From positions 1 through 23,264 of IMG/VR virus record IMGVR_UViG_3300021963_000673: 23,264 nt of DNA; one strand, given 5' to 3'. The translations under genes were made by a program, and so were the position numbers. The notes under the pieces are model-generated. The model ran no database searches, had not been told where the DNA came from, and saw only the letters and a program-made list of their open reading frames with translations. Source of the DNA: a virus. This document shows, piece after piece, positions 4,300-20,086 of the stretch (the stretch's first letter is position 1; every line of letters begins with the position of its first letter).

Positions 4300-4307
4300 A
4301 GAATCAT

Positions 4308-4336: not shown

Positions 4337-4338
4337 TC

Positions 4339-5700: not shown

Positions 5701-5986
5701 AATTTGCTCCTTGTACAGGTGTTGGGCATGCTGCAGGCGCTGTGCTTTGCATCATAGGTTCAGTTCTGGTTGGCGGTGGTCCTAATCTTGGATCACGTTG
5801 GCCTTTAAAAATATGTTCTGGACATGTTCTACTTACATCACACTTTGGCATTTTACAAAAATCTTTTTCCCAATTATCAGGGTCCTGACATGGATATCTA
5901 AATCTGTCACCCCCAAAAATTGCAAGACCCAATGGCAAAAGTATTAACACCAATAATGATAAAAATAATTTTCTATCATTCAACAT
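5690..5986 (-). CDS. Cysteine-rich membrane-anchored or secreted small protein
   Basis: A 98-residue protein with one N-terminal hydrophobic segment (about residues 8-25) followed by GGDRFRYPC. Six cysteines follow in the remaining part (about 33, 44, 49, 55, 87 and 96), and the end is proline-rich. The even number of cysteines after a signal anchor suggests a disulfide-bonded domain in the periplasm. I recognise the GGDRFRYPCQDP start as recurring in aquatic T4-like phages but know no function. The ATG at 5986 has AGGAG eight bases upstream, one base after the endolysin stop. It belongs to the lysis and envelope block. Confidence 0.8.
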   Translation of the reverse strand: MLNDRKLFLSLLVLILLPLGLAIFGGDRFRYPCQDPDNWEKDFCKMPKCDVSRTCPEHIFKGQRDPRLGPPPTRTEPMMQSTAPAACPTPVQGANCGK

Positions 5987-5987
5987 C

Positions 5988-6611
5988 TTACGCTCCTAAA
6001 ACATGTAGTGCGTGTTCATAATGTTTAATTCGGTCATCAAGTCCAATGGTACCACCATTGATACGCTTTGTTAATGTTACGATATCACCTTTATCCGCCC
6101 ATTGATTCAACTTGTTCGTTTCCCAGAACCAACAAGCAGACTGAGCTGCACCTTCAAAGGTTTGTGTATATTCAGCCGCTTCTTCGACAGAAATTCCAAG
6201 TGAACCAGCAAAGAATGTGTAATTGTCTTTACCAGTCAATTGAATGAGTCCACGTCCACGATAACGAAAACCATCGCCTGACGCTTCATCACCGTTACCC
6301 ATGCGGCTTGCATAGATTCGGTTTGCAATTGCTTCTTGTTTGTTTGGACGACTGCAATATTGATTCGCAAGTTCATCTGTTGGAAAATATTTACCAAACA
6401 ACTTACGCAATGTTGCAGGTTTATAGTTTAGATTTTCTTGTAATGCAGTAAAACCACCTGATTCGTGAGCGCATTGTGCGATAAATGCAGCAATTCTTTG
6501 TGCTGTGTTTATTTCATAATCAGGCAATAATTGTGCCAATGCGTTGTGCCATTGGTCAACATAGGGGTTTTTTGGAAGTAATTGTTTTAGTTGTTGTTTT
6601 GTAAGTTCCAT
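5988..6611 (-). CDS. Endolysin, glycoside hydrolase family 19 (chitinase-like)
   Basis: A 207-residue GH19 enzyme that would cut the peptidoglycan glycan chain at lysis. The catalytic pair fits small bacterial GH19 enzymes: Glu50 in AHESGGF as general acid and Glu59 in QENLNY as base, nine residues apart. The substrate-site motif GDGFRYRGRGLIQLTG (112-127) is near-perfect. The whole protein is one catalytic domain without a separate wall-binding domain. It has no signal peptide, so it needs a holin to reach the wall; candidates lie directly downstream. Two spanin-like genes lie directly upstream. The ATG at 6611 overlaps the upstream stop by one base. Confidence 0.95.
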   Translation of the reverse strand: MELTKQQLKQLLPKNPYVDQWHNALAQLLPDYEINTAQRIAAFIAQCAHESGGFTALQENLNYKPATLRKLFGKYFPTDELANQYCSRPNKQEAIANRIYASRMGNGDEASGDGFRYRGRGLIQLTGKDNYTFFAGSLGISVEEAAEYTQTFEGAAQSACWFWETNKLNQWADKGDIVTLTKRINGGTIGLDDRIKHYEHALHVLGA

Positions 6612-6898
6612 TATTTGACACTCTCATAAATGTTTTTTTGAATTTCATACCATTCAATCCATGCATCATTTTTCACGGCGCACTCATAGTAACTTGTGTA
6701 GTTATTTGATATAGTTTTGGTTATATCACTTAACTTTGCATTATCTTTTATTTTTTCTAATTGAGGACATTTTTCTTTTGTGATAGATGGTGCCTCAGGA
6801 AATTTAGCCTTAACAGGCACGGTTGTAGAACAACCTGTCATCAATAATATAATTGCGGCCACCACAAAAAAGAAAATTATTGTTGGAAGTCTCATCAT
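6611..6898 (-). CDS. Outer-membrane lipoprotein, o-spanin (Rz1-like) candidate
   Basis: A 95-residue protein with a lipoprotein signal: basic start, hydrophobic stretch to about residue 20, then the lipobox LMTGC with Cys23 as the lipid site. The residue after Cys23 is Ser, not Asp, which favours sorting to the outer membrane. The mature part has two more cysteines (about 44 and 73) and a conserved-looking end WIEWYEIQK. The gene immediately upstream encodes an inner-membrane coiled-coil protein and overlaps as ATGA, which is the usual two-component spanin order. The endolysin follows. The o-spanin call rests on lipobox plus context, because spanins diverge too much for motif proof. GGAG lies upstream of the ATG. 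Confidence 0.82.
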   Translation of the reverse strand: MMRLPTIIFFFVVAAIILLMTGCSTTVPVKAKFPEAPSITKEKCPQLEKIKDNAKLSDITKTISNNYTSYYECAVKNDAWIEWYEIQKNIYESVK

Positions 6899-7341
6899 TT
6901 TGGTGGCTCCGATGCATCATTTATTGCTTTGACGAATTCTGTAGGTATCTCACATTGCCCGCCAGGAGCAAATTTTACATCATATTTAACTACTTCTCTG
7001 TCAACATACTTGATAACTTCTTCGCCTTTTACACGAACAACTTGTATTTTCTTAACTACCTTTTCAACAATCTTCACATTTTCTTTTGCTGATTTAGCCT
7101 CAGCTTCTGCAACTTTTGCTTCCATTTCTCTCACTCGAGCAAGCCATGCTTCTTCGTTTGAAATTGCACCAGACATATAGGTGCCAATTGCAATCAGAAT
7201 AACAGAAGCAACTTGAATTGGTGTTCTGTAAACATAGACAAATGGAATAAATTTCATCACATATGTTGCTACAACACCTAATAGTCCAGCAAAGAACATT
7301 AGGTAAAAAATCCAATTAGGCAACCATTGTAGTATCCACAT
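6895..7341 (-). CDS. Inner-membrane coiled-coil protein, i-spanin (Rz-like) candidate
   Basis: A 148-residue protein with two hydrophobic segments (about residues 5-28 and 40-58), then a strong heptad coiled coil (about 61-110) and a short end containing GGQCEIPTEFVKAIN. An inner-membrane anchor plus long periplasmic helix is what an i-spanin needs to reach an outer-membrane partner, and the lone cysteine near the end could link two copies. Classical Rz has one N-terminal helix, so the two helices here are unusual, unless the segments are a hairpin anchor. The next gene is a lipoprotein with an ATGA overlap, followed by the endolysin. The start at 7341 forms TAATG with the upstream stop. Confidence 0.8.
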   Translation of the reverse strand: MWILQWLPNWIFYLMFFAGLLGVVATYVMKFIPFVYVYRTPIQVASVILIAIGTYMSGAISNEEAWLARVREMEAKVAEAEAKSAKENVKIVEKVVKKIQVVRVKGEEVIKYVDREVVKYDVKFAPGGQCEIPTEFVKAINDASEPPK

Positions 7342-7586
7342 TATGGATTTTTCCTTCTCATAAAGGATACAAATGATGCAATCTTTTTCTTCTTATTGAC
7401 GCCTGGTTCTCCCTGTGCGCCAACGCCAAGACCTGCGACTGCTGACCCATTACCAACCGCATTAGTTGGTGCATCTTCTTGTTTTACAGGTTCTGCATAT
7501 TTGTCCCAATATGATGGACCATAGGCACATTCAGACCTAGTTTCCATCTTCTGACATTTAGGACAATATCTCATTTCTTGTTTCAT
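7341..7586 (-). CDS. Small protein with N-terminal cysteine cluster (partial zinc-ribbon look)
   Basis: An 81-residue protein with CPKC (Cys8, Cys11) and a further cysteine at residue 20, which gives only three of the four ligands of a normal zinc ribbon; His or Asp may supply the fourth, or it may not bind metal. Residues 45-60 are Gly/Ala-rich and flexible, followed by a basic patch KKKK and an end with MRRKNP. The ATG at 7586 overlaps the upstream stop as ATGA; no clear Shine-Dalgarno site is seen, so it is probably coupled. I do not recognise the family or a function. Confidence 0.7.
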   Translation of the reverse strand: MKQEMRYCPKCQKMETRSECAYGPSYWDKYAEPVKQEDAPTNAVGNGSAVAGLGVGAQGEPGVNKKKKIASFVSFMRRKNP

Positions 7587-7969
7587 TTTTTTCTTAATGC
7601 CTCTGCAATAGAATAATCAATCGGTATATCCGAAGAAATTATATCATAGCCTTTGATTCCTTTTACCCTATCAGGCATAATGTTGAGAAACAACAAATAT
7701 GTTTTTAAGGCAGAATAGTCATCTTTAGCCATTTTAAAAAATAATATTCGTGATGCAACTTCGGGACCAAAAACATTGTAGATAACAACTAGGTGATTTA
7801 ACACCAATTGTTCTCTCAATTCATTATACTTGCGATATCTTTTAAATAATCGTTTCAAGTAATTGAATCGTTTCATGTCCTCTTTAAATTCACTCATTAT
7901 GCAGTTTGGTTTATCATAAGCCTTAACCGCATACATCATTATATTATCATTATTTAATTCATCAAACAT
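7583..7969 (-). CDS. Conserved T4-like phage protein of unknown function
   Basis: The 128-residue product starts MFDELNNDNIMMYAVKAYDKP, then has a basic helical middle (KRLFKRYRKY, about residues 38-47) and the motif LNHLVVIYNVFGPEVASRILFFK (about 58-80). This pattern recurs in T4-like phages of several hosts, usually as a small protein among structural genes; I recall it as a DUF-type family but will not name a number with certainty. It has no signal or membrane segment, so it should act in the cytoplasm. The start is an ATG at 7969, right after the stop of the upstream gene; the stop overlaps the next start as ATGA. Confidence 0.82.
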   Translation of the reverse strand: MFDELNNDNIMMYAVKAYDKPNCIMSEFKEDMKRFNYLKRLFKRYRKYNELREQLVLNHLVVIYNVFGPEVASRILFFKMAKDDYSALKTYLLFLNIMPDRVKGIKGYDIISSDIPIDYSIAEALRKK

Positions 7970-7971
7970 TA

Positions 7972-8340
7972 TTATTCTTCTTCGTCTTCTCCCTCATCCG
8001 ATAAGATTTCGCTTAGACCTTCTTCATCAGTTAATTCAGCGTAAAAATCATAACGACCATCATCGGTGAGAGCGTAGATAATATAAAGGTAAGAACCATC
8101 AATTCCAAAAACCATTTCTTCACCCTCTGGATCAACATCGTAAAGCGCAGGCATATCCATATCGAACATACCTAACACTTTACGAATCTTTTGAATACCA
8201 GATTCTGGAGAAAGAATTGATTGTTGTAATTCGGTTTCCAATTGAGAATTGACTTCTTCCATAATGTCACCATTTAGAGAAGGCATATTTTCAATTTCTT
8301 GGTCAGAATTCATTTCTGCCAAATATTGTGCGAACCTCAT
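7972..8340 (-). CDS. Acidic protein with capsid-targeting-like leader
   Basis: A 122-residue, very acidic protein ending in a run of Asp and Glu (about residues 115-122). Its start, MRFAQYLAE|M, resembles the leader shared by four other proteins here and matches the T4 prohead-protease pattern (Leu/Ile-x-Glu before the cut), though Met after the site is not the usual small residue. The middle (about residues 75-105) predicts beta strands around FGIDGSYLYIIYAL. It may be a scaffold, chaperone or internal head protein, but this is inference from the leader and location. The ATG at 8340 overlaps the preceding stop as TAATG. There is no obvious Shine-Dalgarno site, so it probably relies on the highly translated gene upstream. 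Confidence 0.78.
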   Translation of the reverse strand: MRFAQYLAEMNSDQEIENMPSLNGDIMEEVNSQLETELQQSILSPESGIQKIRKVLGMFDMDMPALYDVDPEGEEMVFGIDGSYLYIIYALTDDGRYDFYAELTDEEGLSEILSDEGEDEEE

Positions 8341-8681
8341 TATGCGTCAGCGAAAGTTACGTCATCGTTAGCGATAGCGCCACCGTCACCAGTCATAGAA
8401 CCCATTGCAACCAATGTTTCTACGTGAACACGGTTTGCACGGCCACCAGAACCAGTTGTCATTAGAACCCAACCAGCGTGACCGCCTTTTGGATTAGATG
8501 CAACGTTTTGTTCTGTTGTGTCTACACCGAACACACCGATGGTTTCGCCAGTAACAAAAGCACCAGCTGTTGTGTTTGCGTACATCAAGTTACTGTTAGC
8601 CTGAGTGTTAGTCAGATTAACTAATGAAGGTGCAAACTTTGGTACGCTTGTGTTTGCATCTGTATTTGACCATAAAGCCAT
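8340..8681 (-). CDS. Small conserved phage protein, probable virion component
   Basis: The 113-residue product starts MALWSNTDANTSVPKF and has a beta-rich middle with GVFGVDTTEQNVA, GGHAGWVLMTTG and VETLVAMGSM. This start and the AGWVL...VAMGSM pattern are common in marine T4-like phages, where I believe it is a small head or virion protein; I know of no experimental proof. It has few charged residues and many Thr, Asn, Gly and Ala, in keeping with a structural protein made in quantity. It has the best expression signals of the block: AGGAG seven to eight bases before the ATG and a late-promoter-like box about 30 bases upstream. Confidence 0.82.
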   Translation of the reverse strand: MALWSNTDANTSVPKFAPSLVNLTNTQANSNLMYANTTAGAFVTGETIGVFGVDTTEQNVASNPKGGHAGWVLMTTGSGGRANRVHVETLVAMGSMTGDGGAIANDDVTFADA

Positions 8682-8711
8682 GTTTTTTCTCCTAGTTTAG
8701 AATTTATTGCT

Positions 8712-8719
8712 TATTTATC
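8712..8719 (-). promoter_or_regulatory. T4-like late promoter motif GATAAATA
   Basis: On the minus strand GATAAATA matches the T4 late -10 element TATAAATA at 7 of 8 bases. It lies in a 45-base gap between genes, 31 bases upstream of the ATG at 8681, leaving a leader of about 25 bases with AGGAG. No -35 box is needed in T4-type late promoters. It would drive the small virion-protein and lysis block. Confidence 0.6.
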
Positions 8720-8726
8720 ACTCAAA

Positions 8727-9761
8727 TTAATTATCTGATTTGACAACTGATGAACCTAATTCAGGTTCAGACTGGAAAGTTTCATCATTTTTCTTTTTAG
8801 CTTTCTTGAAAACTTCTTTCACAATATCACCTTTGCGAGATTCTTCCAGGCTTTCTTTAACAGGCATCTTTTCTGCTTGTTTTTTCAATGCTTGTCTTGC
8901 AAGATTTCTTGCAACTGACATTGGGCTATGTTTTGCACCGGATTTGTCTGTTACTGTGCCGGTTGTTTTCTTGTATGGACCGTCAAATGGTGGTTTGTTG
9001 GCATCATCAGCTTTCTTTTGACGAGCTTGAATAGACAAACTATATTTTGGTTCATCCATAGGTCTAAATGATTCTTTCATATGACCATATTTCTTTTTGT
9101 ACCAGTCAGGCATGCCACTTGTTTTACGGAAATGTCTTACTGTTGCAGAATCATTTGCTTGGTCACGATACTTATTTTCAGCAGTAGTATTGTGACCTTT
9201 CATTGCTTCAGCAGCCTTGTGTGCATCTTTAGCAATATGAATCAATGCCTCATCAGACTTTTTGTGGTACTCATGTCCTTCTAATGGATGGCGTTGTGAT
9301 GGACGACCTTCTTCAAGGTGTTCAACTTCTTCTTTGTTGTATTTCTTTTTCAAATACTTGTCAACTTTACGTGCATATTCATCTTTGACTTCTTCACTCA
9401 TTTCAGAAGTCATATAATTTGCAACAGTTGAAATGTAATCTTCTGCTTTAGTAATCTTGGACTGAACCCACTCAGGAAGATTATCTGCATCGTCAATCAT
9501 ATCATGCATTTTTTGTGCATTAGCAATGATTGAGCGCAAATCAGATTTGGCCATATCACCTTCTTGGTCATACTCACCAATATCAAACTTATCTTTGACT
9601 TTTTCTTGCATAGCCATTTTCTTAGCGTGTTGTACTTGTTGATTCCATTCTTTTTCACCGACTGTATAATGTTCTTCATTGTCGGTTGAAAGGTGTGGTT
9701 TATCTCTAGGTTCACCTTTGGCGAACCGAATAGATTTAAATATTTCTGAAGGCTTTTTCAT
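8727..9761 (-). CDS. Modular charged phage protein with YDQEG and ENKYRDQ repeat-type modules
   Basis: The 344-residue protein is charged and helical, with at least two modules I recognise from other aquatic T4-like phages. The first (about residues 63-120) has YDQEGDMAKSDLRSI, then NLPEWVQSKITKAEDYI. The second (about 155-230) has HPLEGHEYHKKSDEALIHIAKD, ENKYRDQANDSATVRHFRK and WYKKKYGHM. Both modules occur in changing combinations in phage proteins; their role is unknown, but they tend to sit in large multidomain or virion-associated proteins. The C-terminal third is lysine-rich and probably disordered. There is no signal peptide. The start at 9761 forms TAATG with the upstream stop, and the two genes probably act together. 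Confidence 0.85.
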   Translation of the reverse strand: MKKPSEIFKSIRFAKGEPRDKPHLSTDNEEHYTVGEKEWNQQVQHAKKMAMQEKVKDKFDIGEYDQEGDMAKSDLRSIIANAQKMHDMIDDADNLPEWVQSKITKAEDYISTVANYMTSEMSEEVKDEYARKVDKYLKKKYNKEEVEHLEEGRPSQRHPLEGHEYHKKSDEALIHIAKDAHKAAEAMKGHNTTAENKYRDQANDSATVRHFRKTSGMPDWYKKKYGHMKESFRPMDEPKYSLSIQARQKKADDANKPPFDGPYKKTTGTVTDKSGAKHSPMSVARNLARQALKKQAEKMPVKESLEESRKGDIVKEVFKKAKKKNDETFQSEPELGSSVVKSDN

Positions 9762-10618
9762 TATGCACTCTTTTTAGCTTGCTTTGTTGCAGTTGCATAC
9801 ATCACATTCTTTGCACGGTCACCGTAACGCTCTTTGAAACCTGCCATGCCTTTTTTCATAGACATAACAATTTCTTCACGTTTTTTCATTTCTGGTTCAG
9901 TCATTTTTTTTTCTTCAATGACTTCCACTTCTTCTTGCTTAACAGCATCGACTTTGCCTTTAGCAATGTCAGGATTCTTTTTTGCACCAGAAGCCTTTGC
10001 CTTAACGTCCTCTAATTCTGCTTTGTATTCATCATTTGTTGGTTCTTCTTTGACCAACATTTCAGATAAAGATTTTAGACCTTTCTCTTGGTAAAGATTT
10101 ACCATTTCGGAGAATTTCTTTTGTTTCTTTTTCTTCTCTGCTTCAATTTTTTCTAAGTCTTTTTGACCTGGACCACGAACGCCTGCAAATGGGTCGGTTG
10201 GTTTCTCTGAACCACCGTAACGACCTGTCTTTGCATTGTGAACGAACTTACCATCTTTAGATTCATATTCTAAGATAGTTTCTTCTTGTTCTGATTCTTC
10301 CTTCTTTACTTCTTTACTGGCAGGAACTTGTCCTGACAAACCAGTTTTAGGATTGCTTACTGGTTTTAATGTGCTATGTTGACTTACTTTTGCTTGTGGT
10401 GCTTTGGAACCCAATTTACCGGCAGCTTCTTCAACTGTTTCAACTTCTTCCTTCTTTACTTCTTTTTTAGCACGAAGTTTCTTAAAGTCGTCAGCTGTTA
10501 GCTCGTCTTTCTCTGGTTCATGCACATCCAACTTTTGTTGGTTTGGGTGCAATTTTTCATTCATAACTTTCATTACCGCATCGGCAACTGAACGTGTAGT
10601 GTTTGTATCTGAGTACAT
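9761..10618 (-). CDS. Lys/Glu-rich phage protein with ERYGDRAK C-terminal module
   Basis: A 285-residue protein made mostly of Lys and Glu, with two copies of KEVKKEE (about residues 52-58 and 102-108) and long helical, partly disordered stretches. The C-terminal 50 residues form a compact module, KKREEIVMSMKKGMAGFKERYGDRAKNVMYATATK, that recurs in aquatic T4-like phages. The middle has a recognisable DGKFVHNAKTGRYGG stretch. Sites such as VEE|AAG and SEM could be cut by a prohead protease. A scaffold, head-core or internal-protein role fits composition and place, but is not shown. The ATG at 10618 has a strong AGGAG eight bases upstream, in a 19-base gap. Confidence 0.83.
   Translation of the reverse strand: MYSDTNTTRSVADAVMKVMNEKLHPNQQKLDVHEPEKDELTADDFKKLRAKKEVKKEEVETVEEAAGKLGSKAPQAKVSQHSTLKPVSNPKTGLSGQVPASKEVKKEESEQEETILEYESKDGKFVHNAKTGRYGGSEKPTDPFAGVRGPGQKDLEKIEAEKKKKQKKFSEMVNLYQEKGLKSLSEMLVKEEPTNDEYKAELEDVKAKASGAKKNPDIAKGKVDAVKQEEVEVIEEKKMTEPEMKKREEIVMSMKKGMAGFKERYGDRAKNVMYATATKQAKKSA
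10295..10465 (-). repeat. 21-base direct repeat, copies 150 bases apart
   Basis: Identical 21-base stretches at 10295-10315 and 10445-10465 lie in the same frame, exactly 150 bases apart, and both encode KEVKKEE. They look like an internal duplication within the Lys/Glu-rich gene. Recombination between them would delete 50 codons without a frameshift. Confidence 0.8.
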
Positions 10619-10637
10619 AGGGTTTCTCCTGTTTTAA

Positions 10638-11363
10638 TTAATTTTTTACTAATAAAAGGTCAAAGGCTGCAGTATAGCGACCATTATTACTTCTTGTTGT
10701 CAATCTTACATCAATATCTGATTTTTGTGATATTTCTGGTGGAAATGAAAATGGATAGGAATATTGGCCACCATCACCATCAACCTCAAAGGTGTGAGCA
10801 ACTCTGAACGCTGATGTTCCACCAAATCTAATAAACATATTTCCTGTCGCATCAGCACCAGCTTGAGCTGATGCAGTACCTTGATACAAATATCCCGTAT
10901 AATTTCTTGGTATGGTGTAAATTGCCATTAAAGTTTGACCGGAACCAGCAGTAATTAAAGCCACATCCGTTGCGCCATTTTTAATTGAAATTGTTCCAAC
11001 ATTAGTGTTTCCATTAAGACCCATGTAAGCACGGTGAACTCTTATAAAACTATTAGAACTAACATTGTTTGCTTGTGATACTAATGTTATTTCTTCTTCT
11101 AAGATATCATAGTTAGCATCCAAACCAACAACAACCACACTTGCGTTTACATCAGAGGCACTTGAACTGCTTACTGTAATTGTATTTGCTCCAGCACTCC
11201 AAGTCGACCAAGGATAAACTGTATCATTTTTATCCCATACTGTTCCAGTTTGACTTGTTGACATTGCAGGAACTGCGCCAAATTTATGAACAGGAATAAC
11301 TCCCTTGACCATGCCACGGGAAATTTTAATTCTTTCATCTTCCAAATAAGCAATTTGTGCCAT
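10638..11363 (-). CDS. Probable virion protein (beta-rich, marine-phage family)
   Basis: A 241-residue, beta-rich protein with many Ser, Thr, Gly and Asn and few charges. Recognisable blocks are KISRGMVKGVIPVHKFG (about residues 13-29), the VWDKNDTVYPWS stretch (about 42-53), VFRAY-like RVHRAYMG, TLMAIYTIPRNYTGYL (about 145-160) and the C-terminal KSDIDVRLTT...AAFDLLLVKN. This pattern recurs in many marine phages, and I take it as a head- or tail-surface structural protein; the exact place in the virion is unknown. The ATG at 11363 touches the stop of the upstream gene with no gap and has GGAA upstream. It is not a fibre, as there is no collagen-like or adhesin domain. Confidence 0.83.
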   Translation of the reverse strand: MAQIAYLEDERIKISRGMVKGVIPVHKFGAVPAMSTSQTGTVWDKNDTVYPWSTWSAGANTITVSSSSASDVNASVVVVGLDANYDILEEEITLVSQANNVSSNSFIRVHRAYMGLNGNTNVGTISIKNGATDVALITAGSGQTLMAIYTIPRNYTGYLYQGTASAQAGADATGNMFIRFGGTSAFRVAHTFEVDGDGGQYSYPFSFPPEISQKSDIDVRLTTRSNNGRYTAAFDLLLVKN

Positions 11364-12191
11364 TTAGCAATTCCAACGGCGTAGTGCCTTGTTGATTGGA
11401 GAATCAGGGTCTCTTGCGTTTTCATCTTTAGTTAAACGTTTCTTCATGCCGCCCATACGAGCACAGAATGATGCACGGCGTGATTTTCTTTTTCCTGTTG
11501 GGTTCTTTTCTGTTACAGCAGTCTGTAACTTTGAACCTGGATTTTCACGGCGATATGCGTTAACTGCCTTCTGTGAAAGACCATCGGTTTTATCTTGTTT
11601 ATTGATTTTGTTCCAATCTTCATTGAGTTGCTTCTCTTGTAGATACTTTGAAGCATCATCAACGATAGTAGATTCTGACTTCCATCCACCACCCATTGCT
11701 TTATATTTCTTTGCAGCCCAACCATTGGCATATGCGGATGGATAAACATCGAACTTAGCTTTTGCTTGTGCTTTTGCTTGTGCCCATTTTTCAGGACTTG
11801 TTGGTACATTTTTTTCGTCTAATTGTTCCATAGATTCGCTTATCTTTCCTTTACCAAAGTTAGATACGTTGATTGGTTTACCCTTGCGTTCTGGATTAGG
11901 GTCGTGTTTGCGTTTTGTTGCAACAGCAGAGGCTCTTTCTTTTTTAGTGAGTGATGCTCTCTTTTTGTTTGACATACATTTTGGCTTAGCTTCGCCTGGC
12001 TCTCTCGCACAAGGACCAATTGCTTCACCTTTACTATTGATTCTTTTCCAACCACCATCTGGATGGTCTTTATCAAACCAATTACGCAAATCTTCTTTCA
12101 CGCAAGAACCTGGCGAGTAAGGCTTTTTACCTGGAACAGGTTTATGACCAGGCCAACATCTTTCTGCAATGAAGTCTTTTAATCTTTTCAT
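11364..12191 (-). CDS. Basic multi-module protein with capsid-targeting-like leader (DUF5872/DUF6321-like)
   Basis: The 275-residue basic protein starts with the shared leader MKRLKDFIAE|R and then has three small, Lys/Gly/Trp-rich modules. The first (about residues 37-72, DGGWKRINSKGEAIGPCARE, ending in PKCM) resembles DUF5872. The second (about 133-170) has FDVYPSAYANGWAAKKYK and GGGW. The third (about 200-275) has KTDGLSQKAVNAYRRENPGSK, SFCARMGGMKKRL and a final KALRRWNC, close to DUF6321. These modules occur in phages and giant viruses. High charge and the leader suggest a DNA-binding protein packed in the head, but this is inference. The ATG at 12191 overlaps the upstream stop as ATGA. 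Confidence 0.87.
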   Translation of the reverse strand: MKRLKDFIAERCWPGHKPVPGKKPYSPGSCVKEDLRNWFDKDHPDGGWKRINSKGEAIGPCAREPGEAKPKCMSNKKRASLTKKERASAVATKRKHDPNPERKGKPINVSNFGKGKISESMEQLDEKNVPTSPEKWAQAKAQAKAKFDVYPSAYANGWAAKKYKAMGGGWKSESTIVDDASKYLQEKQLNEDWNKINKQDKTDGLSQKAVNAYRRENPGSKLQTAVTEKNPTGKRKSRRASFCARMGGMKKRLTKDENARDPDSPINKALRRWNC

Positions 12192-12415
12192 TTTGGTCTC
12201 AGTTCAGGATACTTGGCATGCATTTGTTCTTTTGACAATTCATGCATGTCTTTCCACAGTTTTGCTTCTTTTTTTGTTTTAGTGGTTCTAATGTGACGGC
12301 CATTTTCATCATGTACATTATATTCAATATCAGCTGTTGTTCTACCACGATAACTTTCTTTTTTAGTTATTGTAGCTTTCTTTTCTTCAAAAATAAAAGA
12401 CTTGAAAGATTTCAT
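12188..12415 (-). CDS. Small basic protein with capsid-targeting-like leader
   Basis: A 75-residue protein that starts MKSFKSFIFE|E, the same kind of leader as its two neighbours, then a basic stretch KKATITKKESYRGR and a mixed domain with IEYNVHDENGRHIRTTKTKKEAKLWKDM. The central part may be one small beta hairpin and helix in which HDENGRHI forms the turn. After cutting at the leader about 65 residues would remain. It overlaps both neighbours as ATGA (with the upstream kinase stop at 12412-12415 and the next start at 12188-12191), so the three leader-bearing genes are translated as one coupled set. I do not recognise a family. Confidence 0.8.
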   Translation of the reverse strand: MKSFKSFIFEEKKATITKKESYRGRTTADIEYNVHDENGRHIRTTKTKKEAKLWKDMHELSKEQMHAKYPELRPK

Positions 12416-14868
12416 ATGGCCTTCTTTGATTTAAATGAAGAAAGGTTGATACCCTTCTTCTTTAACTCATCTTCTTTTTGGTCACCAATAGATGCAGTTG
12501 TTTCATCGCCTTGCATTTCTTCTAGTGGTTTCTTAATCAACTTGGTCTTGGTTAAACCACGACTCATGTTTTCACCAGAACTAGCCATTGAAAGGCCAGT
12601 TTCTATGCCTTTGTCGATGCTTTCTTTGGTGGTCGTTTTTTGTTTGGACCTGATTTGTGAGAGGGTGATTTTGGTTTTGCCGGCGGTGTTACCTTGTTCG
12701 GAGCTTTTGGTGCCGATGCTTTCTGCGGCTGGGGTGGTGTTGTAGTTTCCACCTTCAAATCCTGTACTGGTTGTGTAGTCTCTGCTCTCTCTAAGAATTT
12801 TTCCGTTGCTGCTCGAGTTGCTCCATCCAATGGATGTTTCTCTGACGCTGGTTCTTTTGCTTTCATTCCCAAAAGACTCTTGAAAAATCGAATCATGTTC
12901 TATCTCCTCTTTAATTTTAATTACATAACCCTTAGGGTGTTTCATCACTTCACCGCCATTGATGTGCGCTTCTTTAGCAGCACCACGGCGCAGAAGGAAT
13001 ATTCTTGGTTTGCCAGATGTATCTCTTAGCAATTTCACTTTCTTTTCTTCAAAAATAGATTGAAGGTCATCATTGGTTACAACAAGTTCTTCTTGCTTTT
13101 CGCCAATGGCTTGAACTTTTTTACCTAATGTTAAACTTTCATTAGTGTCTGACAATTCAATTCCAGGATCAGTTTCTTCAACTTCTAAATTATATCCTTG
13201 AATTGAACTAATCATTGAATGTACTTCGTCTACTGTGTCACCTGTAATTGAAAGTGTTACAGATTCAGAAAGTAATCCACCAAATTGTTTTTCGAATTCT
13301 TCATTAACTTTTTTCTTCATTGAAGTTCCAGGCGCAGGAATATTTGGTTCTTTTGGTTGTTCTTGGTCAACTTCAACTAATCTATCATGTACTGAACGGT
13401 GTGTTACTTTTCCGTTTTTACCATATCTACCAAATCCATAATATTGTAATCCTAGTTTTCTCGCTTCTTCAGCTGAACCGGAATCTGGATGTGGTGTTTG
13501 TTCTGCACCATCTTTAGGAACAGGTAATGTATCTTTTTTCTGTAATTCCATTGCAACCCAAGCATCAGCTGTTTCGTTGCTTGGTGGTGTACCTGTGAAT
13601 TCTTTAATGCGAGTAAATAGATTAAGCATTTCATCTTTTTTCTGCTTAACTACTTCAGGTGGTGCTTGGCGCAAATCTTCTGAGTTATCAAACTCCATGT
13701 ATTTGTCGCCAAACATTTTTGCAAATTCTACTCGGCCTGCTTGAACACCATCCCACTTTTGTTTACGAATTTCTTCTGGTACAGTACGACCGCCACGTTG
13801 ACCACGTTCGATGTTGCGTTGTTTAGATACTTCATCCTCTGTTTGAACCAATAACATAGAAGTATCGTAACCAACAGTTTCTAATCGTTCTTTAATCTTT
13901 TTAATCTTGTCTACGTCATCACCAGTACCATTGATGATTAGGCCATTGCGACCTAATAGTGCAAGGCGTTGACGTAACTCTGTCATGTTTTTTGCTTTAC
14001 CACGGACAAAATCACGCTTTTCTTGTTCAGAGGCTGGCATTGTTTTATCAAGACCTTCTTTGTCCATCAAAAACTCTAATGCTTTATCTGAATTGATTTC
14101 TGTAAGGCCGTGACCTGCAAGTGTATTGTCTAGCACATAATCTTTGCCAGAGCCAGGACCACCTGCTAAGAATACTGCTTTGAAAATAGCCTTGTCATGC
14201 ACACCTTCAATTAATAGTTCATTGAAAGATTCATTTAAATCAAATTCTTCATTTAAACCACCCAAGTATTTGTTCAATAACTCTTTTACTTTAACTGGTT
14301 TATTGGCTTTTGGATATAAATCTTTAACTATTTCTTTACGACCTTTATCATCGGCCTTTGAGTACATGGAACGAACTTGGCTACCTGAATAAACTTCTTG
14401 GCCATTAACTTTGAAAACATGTTTCTTCGTTACGTAGATGTAACCATGCCCACCTTCTGGATTAAAAGGTTTGCAATCTCTCAATGATTTGAATGGTTGA
14501 TAATATGCTGGTGAACCATCTTTTTTAGTGTAGTTCACAGGGTCACGTTCACTACGAACCAAAATAAGAATATCTTTCTTTGGATTGTAGTGTTTTAGAA
14601 TTTCTGTAGGATTTACAGGTTGAGAAACCTGAACGAAATTATCCTTGACACCAGCTTGTTGTGCCAAGAATTGTTTATCTTTGAATGGGATTGGTCGATT
14701 TTTTGTGTCGTTACTGGCAGCAACATAAAAATCAGCTGAGGGGAAAGCATTTTTTGCTTGCTCATAACTGCTCATGTGACCAGCATGAAATGGTTGGAAG
14801 CCACCGCCGTAAACAACGATTACTTTTTGACGAGTTGTAGCTTCTTGTATAAAGTCTCTAAATTTCAT
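12412..14868 (-). CDS. HxGH nucleotidyltransferase / P-loop kinase fusion with capsid-targeting-like leader
   Basis: An 818-residue multidomain protein. After the leader MKFRDFIQE|A comes a nucleotidyltransferase domain (about residues 15-200) with GGGFQPFHAGH (His28, His31) and the second motif SGSQVRSMY (161-169), as in NMN adenylyl- or cytidylyltransferases. A P-loop kinase follows (about 228-410) with GGPGSGK (236-242), NSDKA and a later RxxxR-type run ERGQRGGR, similar to zeta-toxin/polynucleotide-kinase-like enzymes. The C-terminal half has small conserved phage modules (PHPDSGSAEEARKLG; FLLRRGAAKEAHINGGEV) and ends in KKKGINLSSFKSKKAI. The order transferase-kinase recalls NadR, but substrates are unproven. 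Residues about 658-755 are Ser/Thr/Asn-rich with unusual C-ending codons, where a nested gene overlaps. GGAG precedes the ATG. Confidence 0.9.
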   Translation of the reverse strand: MKFRDFIQEATTRQKVIVVYGGGFQPFHAGHMSSYEQAKNAFPSADFYVAASNDTKNRPIPFKDKQFLAQQAGVKDNFVQVSQPVNPTEILKHYNPKKDILILVRSERDPVNYTKKDGSPAYYQPFKSLRDCKPFNPEGGHGYIYVTKKHVFKVNGQEVYSGSQVRSMYSKADDKGRKEIVKDLYPKANKPVKVKELLNKYLGGLNEEFDLNESFNELLIEGVHDKAIFKAVFLAGGPGSGKDYVLDNTLAGHGLTEINSDKALEFLMDKEGLDKTMPASEQEKRDFVRGKAKNMTELRQRLALLGRNGLIINGTGDDVDKIKKIKERLETVGYDTSMLLVQTEDEVSKQRNIERGQRGGRTVPEEIRKQKWDGVQAGRVEFAKMFGDKYMEFDNSEDLRQAPPEVVKQKKDEMLNLFTRIKEFTGTPPSNETADAWVAMELQKKDTLPVPKDGAEQTPHPDSGSAEEARKLGLQYYGFGRYGKNGKVTHRSVHDRLVEVDQEQPKEPNIPAPGTSMKKKVNEEFEKQFGGLLSESVTLSITGDTVDEVHSMISSIQGYNLEVEETDPGIELSDTNESLTLGKKVQAIGEKQEELVVTNDDLQSIFEEKKVKLLRDTSGKPRIFLLRRGAAKEAHINGGEVMKHPKGYVIKIKEEIEHDSIFQESFGNESKRTSVRETSIGWSNSSSNGKILRESRDYTTSTGFEGGNYNTTPAAESIGTKSSEQGNTAGKTKITLSQIRSKQKTTTKESIDKGIETGLSMASSGENMSRGLTKTKLIKKPLEEMQGDETTASIGDQKEDELKKKGINLSSFKSKKAI
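12603..12896 (-). CDS. Nested out-of-frame gene: 97-aa Lys/Pro/Ala-rich basic protein
   Basis: This frame lies wholly inside the kinase-fusion gene, shifted by one base. It begins MIRFFKSLLGMKAKEP, has a helix-like middle (DGATRAATEKFLERAE, about residues 24-39) and a strongly basic Pro/Lys/Ala tail from about residue 55, like histone H1 or other DNA-binding tails. Two signs favour a real gene: AGAGGAGA with ideal seven-base spacing before the ATG, and A-ending codons (GCA, CCA, ACA, AAA) like the neighbouring genes, whereas the large frame here uses AGC, ACC, ATC and GGC. It has no signal peptide. Function is unknown. The overlap could mean overprinting, or capture of a small gene into the larger one. 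Confidence 0.6.
   Translation of the reverse strand: MIRFFKSLLGMKAKEPASEKHPLDGATRAATEKFLERAETTQPVQDLKVETTTPPQPQKASAPKAPNKVTPPAKPKSPSHKSGPNKKRPPKKASTKA
12903..12910 (-). promoter_or_regulatory. Strong Shine-Dalgarno site for the nested gene
   Basis: AGAGGAGA on the minus strand lies inside the kinase-fusion coding sequence; its GGAG ends seven bases before the ATG at 12896. It is among the best ribosome sites in the window and has no role in the larger frame. Confidence 0.6.
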
Positions 14869-14905
14869 TCTCTCCGCCTCTGCAGCAGTTAATGTTCTAT
14901 TTAGT

Positions 14906-14913
14906 TATTTATT
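14906..14913 (-). promoter_or_regulatory. T4-like late promoter motif AATAAATA
   Basis: AATAAATA on the minus strand matches T4 late TATAAATA at 7 of 8 bases. It overlaps the methyltransferase stop and lies 38 bases upstream of the ATG at 14868, leaving a leader of about 32 bases with a GGAG site. It would start the block from the nucleotidyltransferase-kinase to the two charged proteins. Confidence 0.5.
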
Positions 14914-15532
14914 CAGCTACAATGAAAGCATTTCCGTGTGGATGGTTGCCAGTCCAGTTTTCTTTAAGGTGACCAAATTCATAGTCAAAGTATTTGATTT
15001 TGAAACCAGCTTCAACTAAAGTGGTCAACCACCATTCTTCTGGTTCACGTACCACATGGGTAACATCCATCTCATATTCACGGATGCGGTATCTTTTGCC
15101 GTCTCCTAACGGTACAGCTACAAATAGAGTTTTACAACGGCGGCGCAACTCATGTAGTACAGAAGGGATTACGTCTTTTGGAATGTGTTCCAACACATCC
15201 TTTGCGATGATAAGGTCCCAACCACCAGTCAGTTGTTCGGTGCTCTCAATCACTTGTAGGTAATCTTTGACCTTTGGGTGACAATTTTGCACGGCATACT
15301 CAGACACATCGGCACCATACGCTTCTTTACCTAAAAGCCTTAGTGCATGAACCATGAAACCTTTGGCACAACCATAATCCAATACTGTATCAAATTTGAT
15401 ATTGTTAATGATTGAAGATGCCTCACGAATGGTGCGTTCAGGCATCCATCGGTAGTTTTCATAAGCACTTACACGATGGCGAACACCATCTTCGAAATAC
15501 TTTTCATCAAATACATTTTTAAGCGAACTCAT
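14909..15532 (-). CDS. SAM-dependent class I methyltransferase
   Basis: A 207-residue Rossmann-fold methyltransferase. Motif I is VLDYGCAKG (residues 50-58), the acidic end of strand 2 is GADVS (73-77), and motif IV is DLIIAKDVLEHI (106-117), the pattern of small-molecule and sugar methyltransferases (UbiE/Methyltransf_11-like) and unlike DNA methyltransferases, which carry DPPY or PCQ motifs. It overlaps the radical SAM gene by 14 bases and closes the cassette of two glycosyltransferases, radical SAM protein and methyltransferase, so it probably modifies the same sugar or glycan product. The acceptor is unknown. The late promoter of the next block overlaps its stop codon. Confidence 0.93.
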   Translation of the reverse strand: MSSLKNVFDEKYFEDGVRHRVSAYENYRWMPERTIREASSIINNIKFDTVLDYGCAKGFMVHALRLLGKEAYGADVSEYAVQNCHPKVKDYLQVIESTEQLTGGWDLIIAKDVLEHIPKDVIPSVLHELRRRCKTLFVAVPLGDGKRYRIREYEMDVTHVVREPEEWWLTTLVEAGFKIKYFDYEFGHLKENWTGNHPHGNAFIVAE

Positions 15533-16637
15533 TATGGCGGGTCTCCGTTACAATATCATCAATCAATTCATTTTGAATAGAATACTTACAGAAAGAACAA
15601 TTATGGTGTCTACGTGTCACATCAGGCCCACCAACTTGTGAGTTATAAAAATCTGTAATACCATCAATGTCACAAATTTTAAATTCTTCATTCACTTGAT
15701 AGTTATTTTCTGGTGCCAACTCGGCAGAAGGACAAACATATACATTACCATCTGTAAACACACAAGGTTTAACCATGTGCATATAACAGTTGTCGTTACG
15801 GCGTTCACCTTTAAAGTTAAAGTCTGACAAGAAAGCATACTTCAACTTGCCATGTTTTTCTTCGTGTTGTGCAATCAATACACGAATACGGTCAATATCT
15901 TGTTTAACCAATTCAACAGCCTTAATCGCATTGAAAGCAATACGACATGGGATTTTCTTTTCTTCAACCCATGCCAACATCTTCATAAAGTTTTCTTCTT
16001 TATAACTGTTGGATGCCAATCGTTTGGCCTTTGAATCTAACCACTCACCTGTAATATTTGGATTTGTAGATGTTTCAGTTGCACCATCCCAAACATAGGC
16101 TGCGGAGATTTCAATATCTAAACCTTCGAACACTTCAAGGTGATATTCATATGGTTCTTTTTCATCCCAAGAATACATGCCAAGGCGAACCCATGACAAC
16201 ATATGCCAGTTCTTAATCTTCTTCAAGCGTGAACCATTGGTACAAATACCAATCTTCAAACCTTTACTGTTTGCGTATGCGATAACTTCATCTAGTTTTG
16301 GATGTAGTGTTGGTTCTCCACCGCCTGTAAACTCCATACCTAGAACACCTAATGCAGCAAACTGGTCAATTGCAGATTTCATCTGTTTGACAGTCAGCAT
16401 TTCTTTCATTGAACGGTTGGCAAAGCAACAGAATGAACAGGTCAAGTTACATGGGTTTGCAGGTGACATGTGAAACATAACTGGTTTCGGTCTGCCACCT
16501 TTTTGAATGATTTCTAATCGGTCAAGGTGCTTCAACAACTTGGTTGCGTTACTTGTGTAACTGCGACCTTGCACTTTCTCGGTTGCTTCTGCAACCGGTT
16601 TCTTCTTCATAATTTTACTTGCATCAATTTTCTGCAT
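15519..16637 (-). CDS. Radical SAM protein with SPASM-type C-terminal cluster domain
   Basis: A 372-residue radical SAM enzyme. The iron-sulfur motif CNLTCSFC (Cys63, Cys67, Cys70) binds the 4Fe-4S cluster that splits SAM; GGGEP (105-109) and ICTNGS are the usual SAM-contacting motifs. The C-terminal part has cysteines at about 284, 292, 302, 322, 347 and 350 with CVFTDGNVYVCPSAEL and CSFCKYS, a SPASM-type auxiliary cluster region. SPASM enzymes act on peptides, proteins or sugars such as aminoglycosides. The neighbours (glycosyltransferases before, methyltransferase after) favour a sugar or glycoprotein substrate. It is not a viperin, which lacks SPASM. AAGG precedes the ATG at 16637, one base after the upstream stop. 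Confidence 0.93.
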   Translation of the reverse strand: MQKIDASKIMKKKPVAEATEKVQGRSYTSNATKLLKHLDRLEIIQKGGRPKPVMFHMSPANPCNLTCSFCCFANRSMKEMLTVKQMKSAIDQFAALGVLGMEFTGGGEPTLHPKLDEVIAYANSKGLKIGICTNGSRLKKIKNWHMLSWVRLGMYSWDEKEPYEYHLEVFEGLDIEISAAYVWDGATETSTNPNITGEWLDSKAKRLASNSYKEENFMKMLAWVEEKKIPCRIAFNAIKAVELVKQDIDRIRVLIAQHEEKHGKLKYAFLSDFNFKGERRNDNCYMHMVKPCVFTDGNVYVCPSAELAPENNYQVNEEFKICDIDGITDFYNSQVGGPDVTRRHHNCSFCKYSIQNELIDDIVTETRHNEFA

Positions 16638-16638
16638 T

Positions 16639-17367
16639 TTATACCTTCAATGTAAATTCATATTCTATTTGTGGTTCTCTGTACGGGCCAACGTCTTCGC
16701 CATATACATCTTTCATAAAGTTTGGATAAACTTCATTTAAAATCTTTTCCATCTCTGCATGTGCTGCTGATTTATCATAGTAACTAGGTTTACCTGGATG
16801 ATACATTGAAACTTCGTGTATCACACCACATTTTTCTTTCATAATAGAAGACATAATCAGGTCAAATCCCCAACCACTTTTTACATTATGGTGTTGGAAA
16901 AATCTCAATACATTATCTAGTAGAGAAGAATGGATGAATTGACCCATACCTTCGTTGAAATTGGTTACACTATATGATTTACTCAGGTCTTGATGTAAAA
17001 TCCTATGTGTAGAATCTGAACCAGCAATAGTTGATAACTGAAACAATTTTAGGTTGTTCTTTGTTGCAATCTCAATTGCACGATTTACACTTCGAATATC
17101 TGTAACAAGGTCATCATCCCAAAATCCAATATAATCATAATCTGTGTAATCAAATGTTTCAAGGAAGTGTTTAACAAGTTCCCACTTATAACCATTGTCT
17201 CTAATCAGTATGTCATATGTTCCAAGGTCTGGTTGAAAATCATTGTAAGTGTATGCAATAACTTCATAATTTCTTGTCGGCTTTGTTACACGCCAATGAT
17301 TGTCTTTATCATAGGCATCATGGTATGCAATAGGAATACCAACAGGACAGAAAATTATATTACGCAT
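16639..17367 (-). CDS. GT-A-like glycosyltransferase (DUF707-like)
   Basis: A 242-residue protein with a GT-A-like layout. YDYIGFWDDDLVTD (residues 77-90) holds an acidic cluster (Asp84-Asp86) of the DxD type that binds a metal and sugar nucleotide, and SGWGFD (164-169) looks like the acceptor/catalytic GWGxD block found in DUF707-like and related transferases. The end is rich in acidic and aromatic residues. No membrane segment is seen, so it works in the cytoplasm. The ATG at 17367 gives an eight-base overlap with the preceding transferase; a TTG at 17379 is less likely. Paired with the other transferase it may add sugars to a virion protein or to DNA bases. Family assignment is by motif only. 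Confidence 0.78.
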   Translation of the reverse strand: MRNIIFCPVGIPIAYHDAYDKDNHWRVTKPTRNYEVIAYTYNDFQPDLGTYDILIRDNGYKWELVKHFLETFDYTDYDYIGFWDDDLVTDIRSVNRAIEIATKNNLKLFQLSTIAGSDSTHRILHQDLSKSYSVTNFNEGMGQFIHSSLLDNVLRFFQHHNVKSGWGFDLIMSSIMKEKCGVIHEVSMYHPGKPSYYDKSAAHAEMEKILNEVYPNFMKDVYGEDVGPYREPQIEYEFTLKV

Positions 17368-18214
17368 ATTTTTTCTCAATCAATTCTTTCAATTCAGGCA
17401 CTCTATCATATTGGTGAACAATTGCAAAAGGTGTACCGTCACTTGTACATACAGTATTATACACTATTATTGGAGATTTTTCAACTAGCCTAGAACCATA
17501 TTTGCCTGCAATTTGTGGGCCTGTTGTGCCTAACTGTGCAGCCCAACCTTCTTCTGACATTGTTTTTCTTGCAACGTCATGGTATGTTTGCATACCCAAC
17601 AGAATGTTCCATGCCGCTTGGTCAGGTCCACCGCCACCTTCAATGTGATGTGATGTGCCTTGGCATAACATATAGATGTTTAGAAACACATCAAGCATTG
17701 TATCAAACTCACCAGAGATAACACCTGCATTGAAAATTAAATTGTCCTTGTATGCATCATGTATCAATGGACCAAATGACTTCATTAAATTGTTTGTACC
17801 CCAATCTTCATCTTTGTAGTACATGGATTCACAGGCAGCATTAATCTTCTTGTCGCCAAGATTGTTTTCTAACCAAGTGGATGGGTTTGATTGAAACACA
17901 ACATCTTTTACATCTGTAGTAATGATGTAACGATATTGGCCTTTGAATTGTTTGAGTAGGTACCAAAGGTGTAAGAACCTTTCGACCATGATTGAGAAGT
18001 CTTGTTTATATTCTAACCGTTTTGCTTCATCATTTCTTTTAAAAGCAAAAACGGTATAACCACGCTTGGTTAATTCATCTGCAACATCATAACCAATATT
18101 GTAACAAATCATGGCTTTAGTACCAGTAAAGCCAGACCTATCTAACGAATTAACCCAAGGCGCAATTTTGTCAAAACTGTAGCCAGTGATAAAGCCAATC
18201 ACCATATCTTTCAT
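17360..18214 (-). CDS. Predicted GT-A-like glycosyltransferase
   Basis: A 284-residue protein with a nucleotide-sugar transferase pattern: an N-terminal strand MVIGFITGY, then YRYIITTDVKDVVFQSNP (about residues 94-111) where TDVKD is the DxD-like metal site and the following Asp-Val-Val-Phe-Gln is typical of GT-A folds. NAGVISG and GGGGPDQAAWN (about residue 200) match the acceptor-side NxG and DQxxxN motifs of such enzymes. It lacks a signal or membrane helix. The ATG at 18214 is preceded by TTGGAG at good spacing; a TTG at 18226 is unlikely. It opens the sugar-modification cassette behind two small phage proteins. Donor and acceptor are unknown. Confidence 0.85.
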   Translation of the reverse strand: MKDMVIGFITGYSFDKIAPWVNSLDRSGFTGTKAMICYNIGYDVADELTKRGYTVFAFKRNDEAKRLEYKQDFSIMVERFLHLWYLLKQFKGQYRYIITTDVKDVVFQSNPSTWLENNLGDKKINAACESMYYKDEDWGTNNLMKSFGPLIHDAYKDNLIFNAGVISGEFDTMLDVFLNIYMLCQGTSHHIEGGGGPDQAAWNILLGMQTYHDVARKTMSEEGWAAQLGTTGPQIAGKYGSRLVEKSPIIVYNTVCTSDGTPFAIVHQYDRVPELKELIEKKYA

Positions 18215-18229
18215 AACAAACTCCAATAA

Positions 18230-18583
18230 TTATTTCTTTTTGTAATCCTTAAATGATTTCAACTTACCTTGACCAGGAGTATCATTCATATAATTCTTAA
18301 CTAACGTATCAGTACCATCATTTCCTGCACCAGATGGTGGAAGAATATCTGGTTTAATTTCTTCATACACACTCTTATGTAGTTTAACACCAGTAACGTG
18401 TTGAACTAACTTCCATGCTTCTTTATGTTTCTTGTTCTTTACATGGTCGTTGAACTGTTTCTTTTGTTGTTCATTTGCCTTTTGTTTGAACTTAACTAAT
18501 TCCATAATACCGATATTACCGGCATATGAGGCTTCTTTTAAAATTTTTCGGTTAGAAACCACTCTGATAACAGCTTCACTCAT
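18230..18583 (-). CDS. Conserved T4-like phage protein of unknown function (AGNIGIMEL type)
   Basis: A 117-residue basic protein with a recognisable core: EASYAGNIGIMELVKFKQKA (about residues 17-36), the motif AWKLVQHVTGVKLHK (about 56-70) and a Gly-rich end with PPSGAGNDGTDTLVKNY. I recall the AGNIGMME/AWKLLQ pattern from aquatic T4-like phages, always as a small protein without assigned function. It has no membrane segment, is helical in the middle and may be disordered at the end. GAGG precedes the ATG at 18583, one base after the upstream stop. It sits with another small conserved phage protein downstream of the ligase-like gene, so both may be virion or assembly factors. Confidence 0.82.
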   Translation of the reverse strand: MSEAVIRVVSNRKILKEASYAGNIGIMELVKFKQKANEQQKKQFNDHVKNKKHKEAWKLVQHVTGVKLHKSVYEEIKPDILPPSGAGNDGTDTLVKNYMNDTPGQGKLKSFKDYKKK

Positions 18584-18584
18584 A

Positions 18585-18857
18585 TTATCCTCGTGTCAAT
18601 GCTAAAATCTTTTGCATTTGTGTTTCAAGGATTGGTCCACGGTTTGGCCAATGAATGTATGGTTGATTTGAAGTCTTATAAAGATTCGTTAGAAAAGGCA
18701 TAATCAACTTCTCTACTTGGGCCAATCTTTGTTTATATTCTTCCGCAGTTTCTTCTTTCTCGGCTATAACAGCTTGATACTCAGCTTCATTGACAGCAGA
18801 GAAACCAAAGTCATTATCACCATACTCAGCAAGAATTTTATTTAAATCATATGCCAT
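18585..18857 (-). CDS. Small conserved phage protein (YIHWPNR motif)
   Basis: A 90-residue acidic, helical protein that starts MAYDLNKILAEYGDNDFGFS and has a coiled-coil-like middle (EETAEEYKQRLAQVEKLIMPFL, about residues 32-53) and the motif PYIHWPNRGPILETQMQKIL (about 65-84) that recurs in T4-like phages of aquatic bacteria. KILAE|Y near the start looks a little like a head-protease site, but the leader is not of the MKxFxxFIxE type, so I do not count it. The ATG at 18857 overlaps the ligase-like stop as TAATG, and GGGA lies upstream; a GTG at 18869 is less likely. Function is unknown. Confidence 0.82.
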   Translation of the reverse strand: MAYDLNKILAEYGDNDFGFSAVNEAEYQAVIAEKEETAEEYKQRLAQVEKLIMPFLTNLYKTSNQPYIHWPNRGPILETQMQKILALTRG

Positions 18858-20086
18858 TATTTGTCCCACGCTTTCTGTGCATTAAAGTTTGCATGTGCAA
18901 ATTCTAGTCGGTCAACCAACTTAACTGCATTGCCTTTTAATTTATCTACTGCTACGAATCCTTCTGGATTAGTAATCTTGAAACCATCATCTGTTCTTAG
19001 AAAAGTACCAGTAACTTGTTTCATTTGTTGTAGTTTTTTGATAATCATATTTTTTGCATCAACAATATCATTCTGAATTTGAAAAATCTTTTCCAGTTCA
19101 AAAGCATTGTTACGATAGAAACGCATCAATTCATTCTTTTCGAATTGTCGTTTCTGTTTTGTTTCTTCTTTTTTGGCAGCAATGATTTCTTTGTTCAATC
19201 GTTCTTCAACCCAACGAATCAAATCTCTTGTGTGTTGATTCACATTACGTATTGGTTCACCTGCACGTACTTTGGTGTTGTTGAAGGTCTTAATCTGTAA
19301 CTGAATCATCTCTGTGGTTGCAATACGATTCAATGTCATAGAATTGACTGTTCTAAACATACCACCCGCACGAGACAGAACGGAAGTAATCTGTTTTGTT
19401 TCTTCTTGTGTAAAGGTTGCAGTACCAGAAGCATCAACAAAGTATGCATCACGGAACCAAACATCTTTAGTGGTAGTCAAATTCTTAATGTCGATATTAA
19501 ATGAAGACTTCATATCTGCCATTGTTTTGCCGGTGTATGAAGTATGAAACACAATACCGAGTTGAGCCGCCAACATAGATGTGGCTAATTTAGAATCAGA
19601 AGGCACAGCATAGACAATTGTGTTTGGTTGAAAAATGATGTATTTGGTTCCATCAATTGTTTCTTCTTCAATATCACCTTTACTAAACATCATATCGCCT
19701 TGCAATACACCTTTAATGCCTAGTTTTGGTAAGTATCTCAATGCCACTTTCAGTTTAGCATTAAGTCCTTCACCTGGATGGTTTCTATCAATGTCATCAT
19801 CTGTATAATTTAATTTTGCATTTGCGTTGAAGACACCTTTAGTACCAACAAAGAATTTACCATTCTCTGGATTAATACCACAGAAAACAGCAGGTGCACC
19901 ATCCCATTTTGTTGTTACGTTTACTTTACTTGAAGAATGTCCTGCCAACATATCTCGGAGAGATTGTAGGAAATTGATTGCATCACGAGTACCGGATACA
20001 CCACGGTTAAGAACTTCATCTTCGATGTGTTCTAGATGAAGGTTCTTACCTTCTTTTGCTTCGGTTATAAATTCTGTGAATTTCAT
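18857..20086 (-). CDS. DUF6267 protein, ligase-like nucleotidyltransferase with capsid-targeting-like leader
   Basis: A 409-residue phage protein that I recognise as DUF6267. After the leader MKFTEFITE|A there is a conserved block (NLHLEHIEDEVLNRG, residues 15-29) and then TTKWDGAPAVFCG, where Lys60-x-Asp62-Gly63 is motif I of the covalent nucleotidyltransferase superfamily (DNA and RNA ligases, capping enzymes). KGVLQGDMMF (125-134) fits motif III, and the following strand YIIFQPNTIVYAV fits motif IIIa/IV. The C-terminal third is helical. It should bind a nucleotide on Lys60 and may seal or modify nucleic-acid ends, but no ligase activity is established for the family. The start at 20086 lacks a clear Shine-Dalgarno site and follows the upstream gene by one base. 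Confidence 0.87.
   Translation of the reverse strand: MKFTEFITEAKEGKNLHLEHIEDEVLNRGVSGTRDAINFLQSLRDMLAGHSSSKVNVTTKWDGAPAVFCGINPENGKFFVGTKGVFNANAKLNYTDDDIDRNHPGEGLNAKLKVALRYLPKLGIKGVLQGDMMFSKGDIEEETIDGTKYIIFQPNTIVYAVPSDSKLATSMLAAQLGIVFHTSYTGKTMADMKSSFNIDIKNLTTTKDVWFRDAYFVDASGTATFTQEETKQITSVLSRAGGMFRTVNSMTLNRIATTEMIQLQIKTFNNTKVRAGEPIRNVNQHTRDLIRWVEERLNKEIIAAKKEETKQKRQFEKNELMRFYRNNAFELEKIFQIQNDIVDAKNMIIKKLQQMKQVTGTFLRTDDGFKITNPEGFVAVDKLKGNAVKLVDRLEFAHANFNAQKAWDK

Follow-up and report, generated by a model that had tools for sequence, protein, structure and literature searches.

Glycosyltransferase (GT), UDP-glucose dehydrogenase (UGD) and radical S-adenosylmethionine (SAM) genes have already been reported in pelagimyophages, both in HTVC008M and in metagenome-assembled genomes (PMC7029224), and the heptose genes of phage SynMITS9220M01 have been described as well (PMC7378029). 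Here we analyze a virus record from IMG/VR (IMGVR_UViG_3300021963_000673), a fragment of 23,264 bases that we refer to as the window, in which four minus-strand genes running from 18214 to 14909 encode two putative glycosyltransferases (GT1 and GT2), a radical SAM enzyme (rSAM) and a class I SAM-dependent methyltransferase (MT). The locus recalls those of pelagimyophages, T4-like aquatic phages with GT, radical SAM, methyltransferase and UGD genes. We propose that the four genes form an accessory cassette for glycan assembly and tailoring, which would place a radical-edited, methylated sugar most likely on a virion protein; we put the probability of this reading at about 45%.

In both described phages an MT gene adjoins the rSAM gene. 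The rSAM and MT of SynMITS9220M01 are 58% and 50% identical to those of the window and are encoded in the same order by overlapping genes, but their neighbors are ADP-heptose genes, a carbamoyltransferase fusion and a GT25 gene instead of GT1 and GT2. For HTVC008M the identities are 23% for rSAM and 45% for MT; the window differs in having no UGD, NolO or NAD synthase gene and in placing the cassette between a DUF6267 gene and a nucleotidyltransferase-kinase gene. The GTs of HTVC008M were rejected as homologs of GT1 and GT2 at a profile comparison probability of at most 0.2%, with two genes compared, both without detectable relation to GT2 and one also to GT1. While GT and radical SAM cassettes are known in pelagimyophages, we found no published description of the four-gene module or of an rSAM-MT kernel shared across three phage groups in the part of the literature covered. 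If the proposal is true, aquatic T4-like phages of wide distribution produce a sugar whose synthesis depends on radical C-H chemistry, with the conserved rSAM-MT pair as the constant step around which glycosyltransferases are exchanged. The pair would then also provide defined enzymes for asking what marine myophage glycosyltransferases decorate, and the phage-borne radical SAM family is the most interesting part of the cassette.

A conserved four-gene module

GT1 occupies 17360-18226 from a TTG start and GT2 16639-17379, also from TTG, with in-frame ATG codons at 18214 and 17367 that would give proteins of 284 and 242 aa; rSAM (15519-16637, 372 aa) and MT (14909-15532, 207 aa) start with ATG. 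With the ATG starts, GT1 and GT2 overlap by 8 bases (17360-17367), GT2 is followed by rSAM after a single base, and rSAM and MT overlap by 14 bases (15519-15532), reproducing the tight coupling noted in an original prediction made from the letters of the window. Several relatives share the N-terminal MRKNM stretch of GT2, and the TTG start may therefore be the true one for this gene.

A scan with the rSAM protein identified 65 IMG/VR viral contigs as relatives, some of them near-identical; all module counts hold for contigs selected with this query. Both GT1 and GT2 were present in all 62 contigs testable upstream (extending at least 3.2 kb in that direction), and MT in all 35 testable downstream (at least 1.7 kb). 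The same four-gene order, which the original prediction had proposed to look for in related phages, is retained in 33 of the 34 contigs testable on both sides; in the exception, L051, a diverged GT1 is located downstream. Estimates of the ratio of nonsynonymous to synonymous substitution rates (dN/dS) lie between 0.01 and 0.31 for all four genes in sampled pairs with estimable dS, indicating that each is under purifying selection. Together these results identify the four genes as a real conserved module; the outcome that would have refuted the original prediction, relatives with the genes dispersed and never found together, was not observed.

Within this module the rSAM-MT pair is the constant part and the GTs are exchanged around it. 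The rSAM and MT of contig L038 are 84-85% identical to those of the window, but its GT1 is only 39% and its GT2 53% identical, and the locus has gained an epimerase and a GT8-like gene; L063 is similar. The converse arrangement occurs in L123, where GT1 and GT2 lack an rSAM gene in their vicinity and are clustered with a GT10 fucosyltransferase, a C-methyltransferase, a dTDP-glucose-4,6-dehydratase-like enzyme and a UDP-sugar dehydrogenase (the last two named by eye). The description of the four genes as a complete-looking route was too generous: no sugar-nucleotide gene was recognized in the 23 kb window fragment, and 42/65 relatives carry, in or adjoining the cassette, an extra Methyltransf_24 gene that the window does not have.

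Predicted activities of the four enzymes

Family searches with GT1 returned a weak PHROG glycosyltransferase match (2.4e-4), and no sequence or profile match to PDB chains was found at E values up to 1; profile searches of PDB sequences gave nothing useful for either GT1 or GT2. An AlphaFold2 model of GT1 was of high quality (predicted local distance difference test score (pLDDT) 94.7; predicted template modeling score 0.92), and its Foldseek and VIA-align matches, among those listed, were all GT-A-type glycosyltransferases, with Z values of 16.6-18.6 across 50 PDB entries. The top VIA-align match was the collagen glucosyltransferase domain of LH3 (PLOD3; Z 18.6, root mean square deviation 2.8, 207 residues aligned), and the mimivirus collagen glucosyltransferase R699 also scored highly (Z 17.6). 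Over 21 sequences of GT1, the acidic metal-binding motif D101xxD104 and the residues E129, W138, D198-Q199 and H267 are invariant and N162 nearly so. The corresponding LH3 residues are DxxD, Glu141, Trp145, Asn165 and Asp191-Gln192 (PMC9546862, PMC10342707), and DxxD, E129, W138, N162 and D198-Q199 of GT1 run in the same order, a match of order and identity and not a structural alignment. The fold does not tell the acceptor class, because GT6 enzymes score almost as high (Z 17.3), only about 1 below LH3. Based on the model, we predict that GT1 is a metal-dependent GT-A glycosyltransferase.

GT2 matches DUF707 (PF05212) at 27.4 against a cut-off of 24.1, with residues 62-128 only aligned, and gives a weak match to Glycos_transf_2 (8e-4). 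Its D84-D85-D86 motif is invariant over 20 sequences, and GT2 is probably a DUF707/GT-A-like glycosyltransferase. The two GT-A-like transferases of the original prediction are thereby supported, GT1 by predicted structure and GT2 by family match. MT exceeds the cut-off for PF13489, Methyltransf_23 (44 bits versus 27), bearing out its description as a small-molecule-type methyltransferase.

rSAM matches the radical SAM family PF04055 with 49.6 bits (cut-off 29.5), and its CX3CX2C motif (C63/C67/C70) is invariant in 29 sequences. Equally invariant in these are the C-terminal residues C284-X12-G297-X4-C302 and C347-X2-C350, while C292 is not conserved, with F or Y taking its place in some relatives. 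Twitch domains have a C-terminal CX9-15GX4C plus CX2C and hold one auxiliary cluster. They are truncated SPASM domains, and the single auxiliary cluster of BtrN is held by four cysteines (PMC9012708). The second-cluster cysteines of SPASM (CX2CX5CX3C and a last C) were not found in the rSAM of the window, which has no cysteine after C350. Its C terminus appears to fit Twitch and not full SPASM: of the radical SAM/SPASM protein originally predicted, the radical SAM core and auxiliary-cluster cysteines are there and the second SPASM half is missing.

The phage enzyme resembles BtrN and other Twitch enzymes in combining CX3CX2C with one four-cysteine auxiliary set, but only its radical SAM core matches solved structures in sequence, and the phage family has conserved N- and C-terminal parts besides. 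No NCBIfam match to rSAM or MT came near its cut-off. A cellular origin of the family was considered and set aside, one genome scan with two short patterns having returned five loci with generic core similarity only, a search that leaves absence unproven. Directly upstream of the cassette, relatives of three lineages (L033/L034, L042 and L055) carry genes for IscU-like (NifU_N) and IscA-like (Fe-S_biosyn) proteins (L033 2475-3166; L042 1954-2662; L055 2697-3405), as if these supplied clusters to the radical SAM enzyme.

A sugar substrate and its acceptor

The cassette very likely acts on a sugar, because the rSAM-MT pair recurs beside unrelated GTs and UGD in one setting and in an ADP-heptose island in another. 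At the 24 loci of the HTVC008M type the pair, where testable, follows GT-like genes and precedes UGD; these contigs carry three other GT-like genes; most also have NAD synthase and some a NolO-like carbamoyltransferase. In SynMITS9220M01 it lies inside the ADP-heptose island together with the carbamoyltransferase fusion and GT25. Sugar-nucleotide genes elsewhere in the genome, which the original prediction suggested seeking, are present in most larger relatives and directly beside the cassette in several: an epimerase/dehydratase protein is found in 14 of 20 relatives' records and adjoins the cassette in L041, L045, L048 and L055. That rSAM-MT is found next to sugar genes in three groups of phages also argues against direct modification of a peptide or protein by rSAM, in the manner of enzymes for ribosomally synthesized and post-translationally modified peptides (RiPPs) or at a side chain, with the GTs in a separate or later role, a reading that we consider very unlikely. 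Fold and profile matches of rSAM do include the RiPP maturases SkfB and SuiB, but the sugar and nucleoside enzymes DesII, BlsE, AbmM and BtrN match about equally well, and we noticed no conserved gene nearby that could encode a short precursor peptide.

It is therefore very probable that the four genes build a methylated sugar of an unusual kind, as originally suggested, a product that gene context supports; which acceptor receives it is not settled by sequence. In the mechanism that we envisage, sugar building blocks would be supplied by the host or by other parts of the phage genome, and GT1 and GT2 would act as cytosolic GT-A enzymes that transfer sugars from nucleotide sugars to an acceptor. 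A 5'-deoxyadenosyl radical generated by rSAM would abstract hydrogen from a sugar ring carbon. Two-electron oxidation would be the likeliest outcome for an enzyme predicted, like BtrN, to hold one auxiliary cluster by four cysteines, with epimerization or deoxygenation as possible alternatives. MT would then O-methylate the edited sugar. The acceptor would most likely be a protein of the virion, for instance a tail fiber, which may alter recognition or protect the particle; this is the weakest step of the scheme.

Phage DNA had been named among the possible acceptors, and GTs and methyltransferases do occur in known phage DNA hypermodification. However, no protein of PF00303, the thymidylate-synthase-fold family of dCMP/dUMP hydroxymethylases, was found in eight large or complete relatives, including the complete SynMITS9220M01 and HTVC008M, which argues against DNA glucosylation, and the thymidylate synthase of the window is, judged by eye, of the ThyX type. 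A QueC-like gene lies beside rSAM and MT in L042 (7059-7610) and L055 (7682-8224), a weak hint of deazaguanine chemistry, but it is present in only 2/65 contigs. We give hardly any credence to T-even-like glucosylation or another base hypermodification by this cassette.

This leaves a virion protein or an existing host glycan, and we lean slightly toward the former. Hydropathy analysis detected no membrane-spanning stretch in any of the four proteins, and the same eight relatives contained no match to the initiating phosphoglycosyltransferases PF02397 and PF00953 or to the Wzx-type flippase PF01943. Both results favor a virion acceptor, and the second disfavors a de novo lipid-linked O-unit pathway. 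It is quite possible, on the other hand, that the same enzymes modify lipopolysaccharide or another envelope glycan of the host, blocking superinfection or the loss of progeny onto debris. Enzymes with no membrane anchor, in genomes with no match to an initiating transferase or flippase, could still modify a lipid-linked glycan that is already present and faces the cytosol. The ADP-heptose genes of SynMITS9220M01, a PfkB kinase and epimerase in G001 and the UGD and NolO-like genes of the HTVC008M group are in line with a host-surface role, and the replacement of GTs with rSAM and MT retained in L038 and L063 is what surface diversity predicts.

Several observations weigh against a virion glycan. 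The cassette could not be linked to any acceptor gene; a phage that modifies the host envelope would be expected to carry ADP-heptose, UGD and NolO-like genes as well; and the GTs of pelagimyophages have been read as modifiers of the host O-chain (PMC7029224). The structure model of rSAM was poor (pLDDT 66.9) and was dropped as a guide to substrate, and its match list consequently fails to tell sugar enzymes from those acting on peptides. A collagen-like fiber as a general acceptor, an idea prompted by the fold of GT1, was also rejected: of the 23 records searched, only two (G003 and G004) had a PF01391 match over cut-off, and six others of more than 130 kb had none. The narrower version of the virion proposal, in which a phage-only Twitch enzyme edits a sugar ring carbon and the GTs place the sugar on fiber proteins, yielding an undescribed, radical-made methylated virion glycan, we regard as unlikely. 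Separately, two relatives, L152 (about 7446-10000) and L158 (about 3300-16700), encode very long, Ser/Thr-rich collagen-like Gly-X-Y proteins, with an open frame of up to 2272 aa.

Phage type and flanking genes

In this aquatic phage, almost all genes of the window lie on the minus strand. Its replication genes (DnaB-like helicase, primase, thymidylate synthase and ribonucleotide reductase), together with an endolysin and DUF6267, point to an origin in a T4-like myovirus. On one side the cassette is flanked by two small genes and the DUF6267 gene (18857-20086, minus strand; PF19782, 1.6e-113), which marks the left boundary of the region; a conserved 117-aa protein (18230-18583, minus strand) is encoded directly upstream of GT1 and is syntenic in most relatives. 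The right boundary is a minus-strand gene at 12412-14868, also syntenic in relatives, in which a cytidylyltransferase-like nucleotidyltransferase domain and a zeta-toxin-like kinase domain (PF01467 and PF06414, both over cut-off) are fused in a single 818-aa protein.

Among isolates, the Methylophilales Melnitz phages match DUF6267 most closely, and the other matches are mostly cyanophages. The Melnitz protein is about 52% identical to that of the window, and the equivalent place there has no cassette. In the complete genome of a cultured Melnitz phage (L193) this place holds DUF6267, a 130-aa open reading frame (ORF) and a nucleotidyltransferase-like ORF (the last judged by eye, with tblastn of the window protein below threshold), and the genome contains no radical SAM match. 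The Melnitz locus thus looks like an empty, cassette-free site.

Five window proteins (18857-20086, 12412-14868, 12188-12415, 11364-12191 and 7972-8340) have N termini of the type MKFxxFIxEA, and in DUF6267 and the nucleotidyltransferase-kinase protein this feature is conserved among relatives. We take this letter pattern to resemble the capsid targeting sequences of T4, and the proteins that carry it may be packaged in the phage head. Such T4 sequences have been described (PMC9026906).

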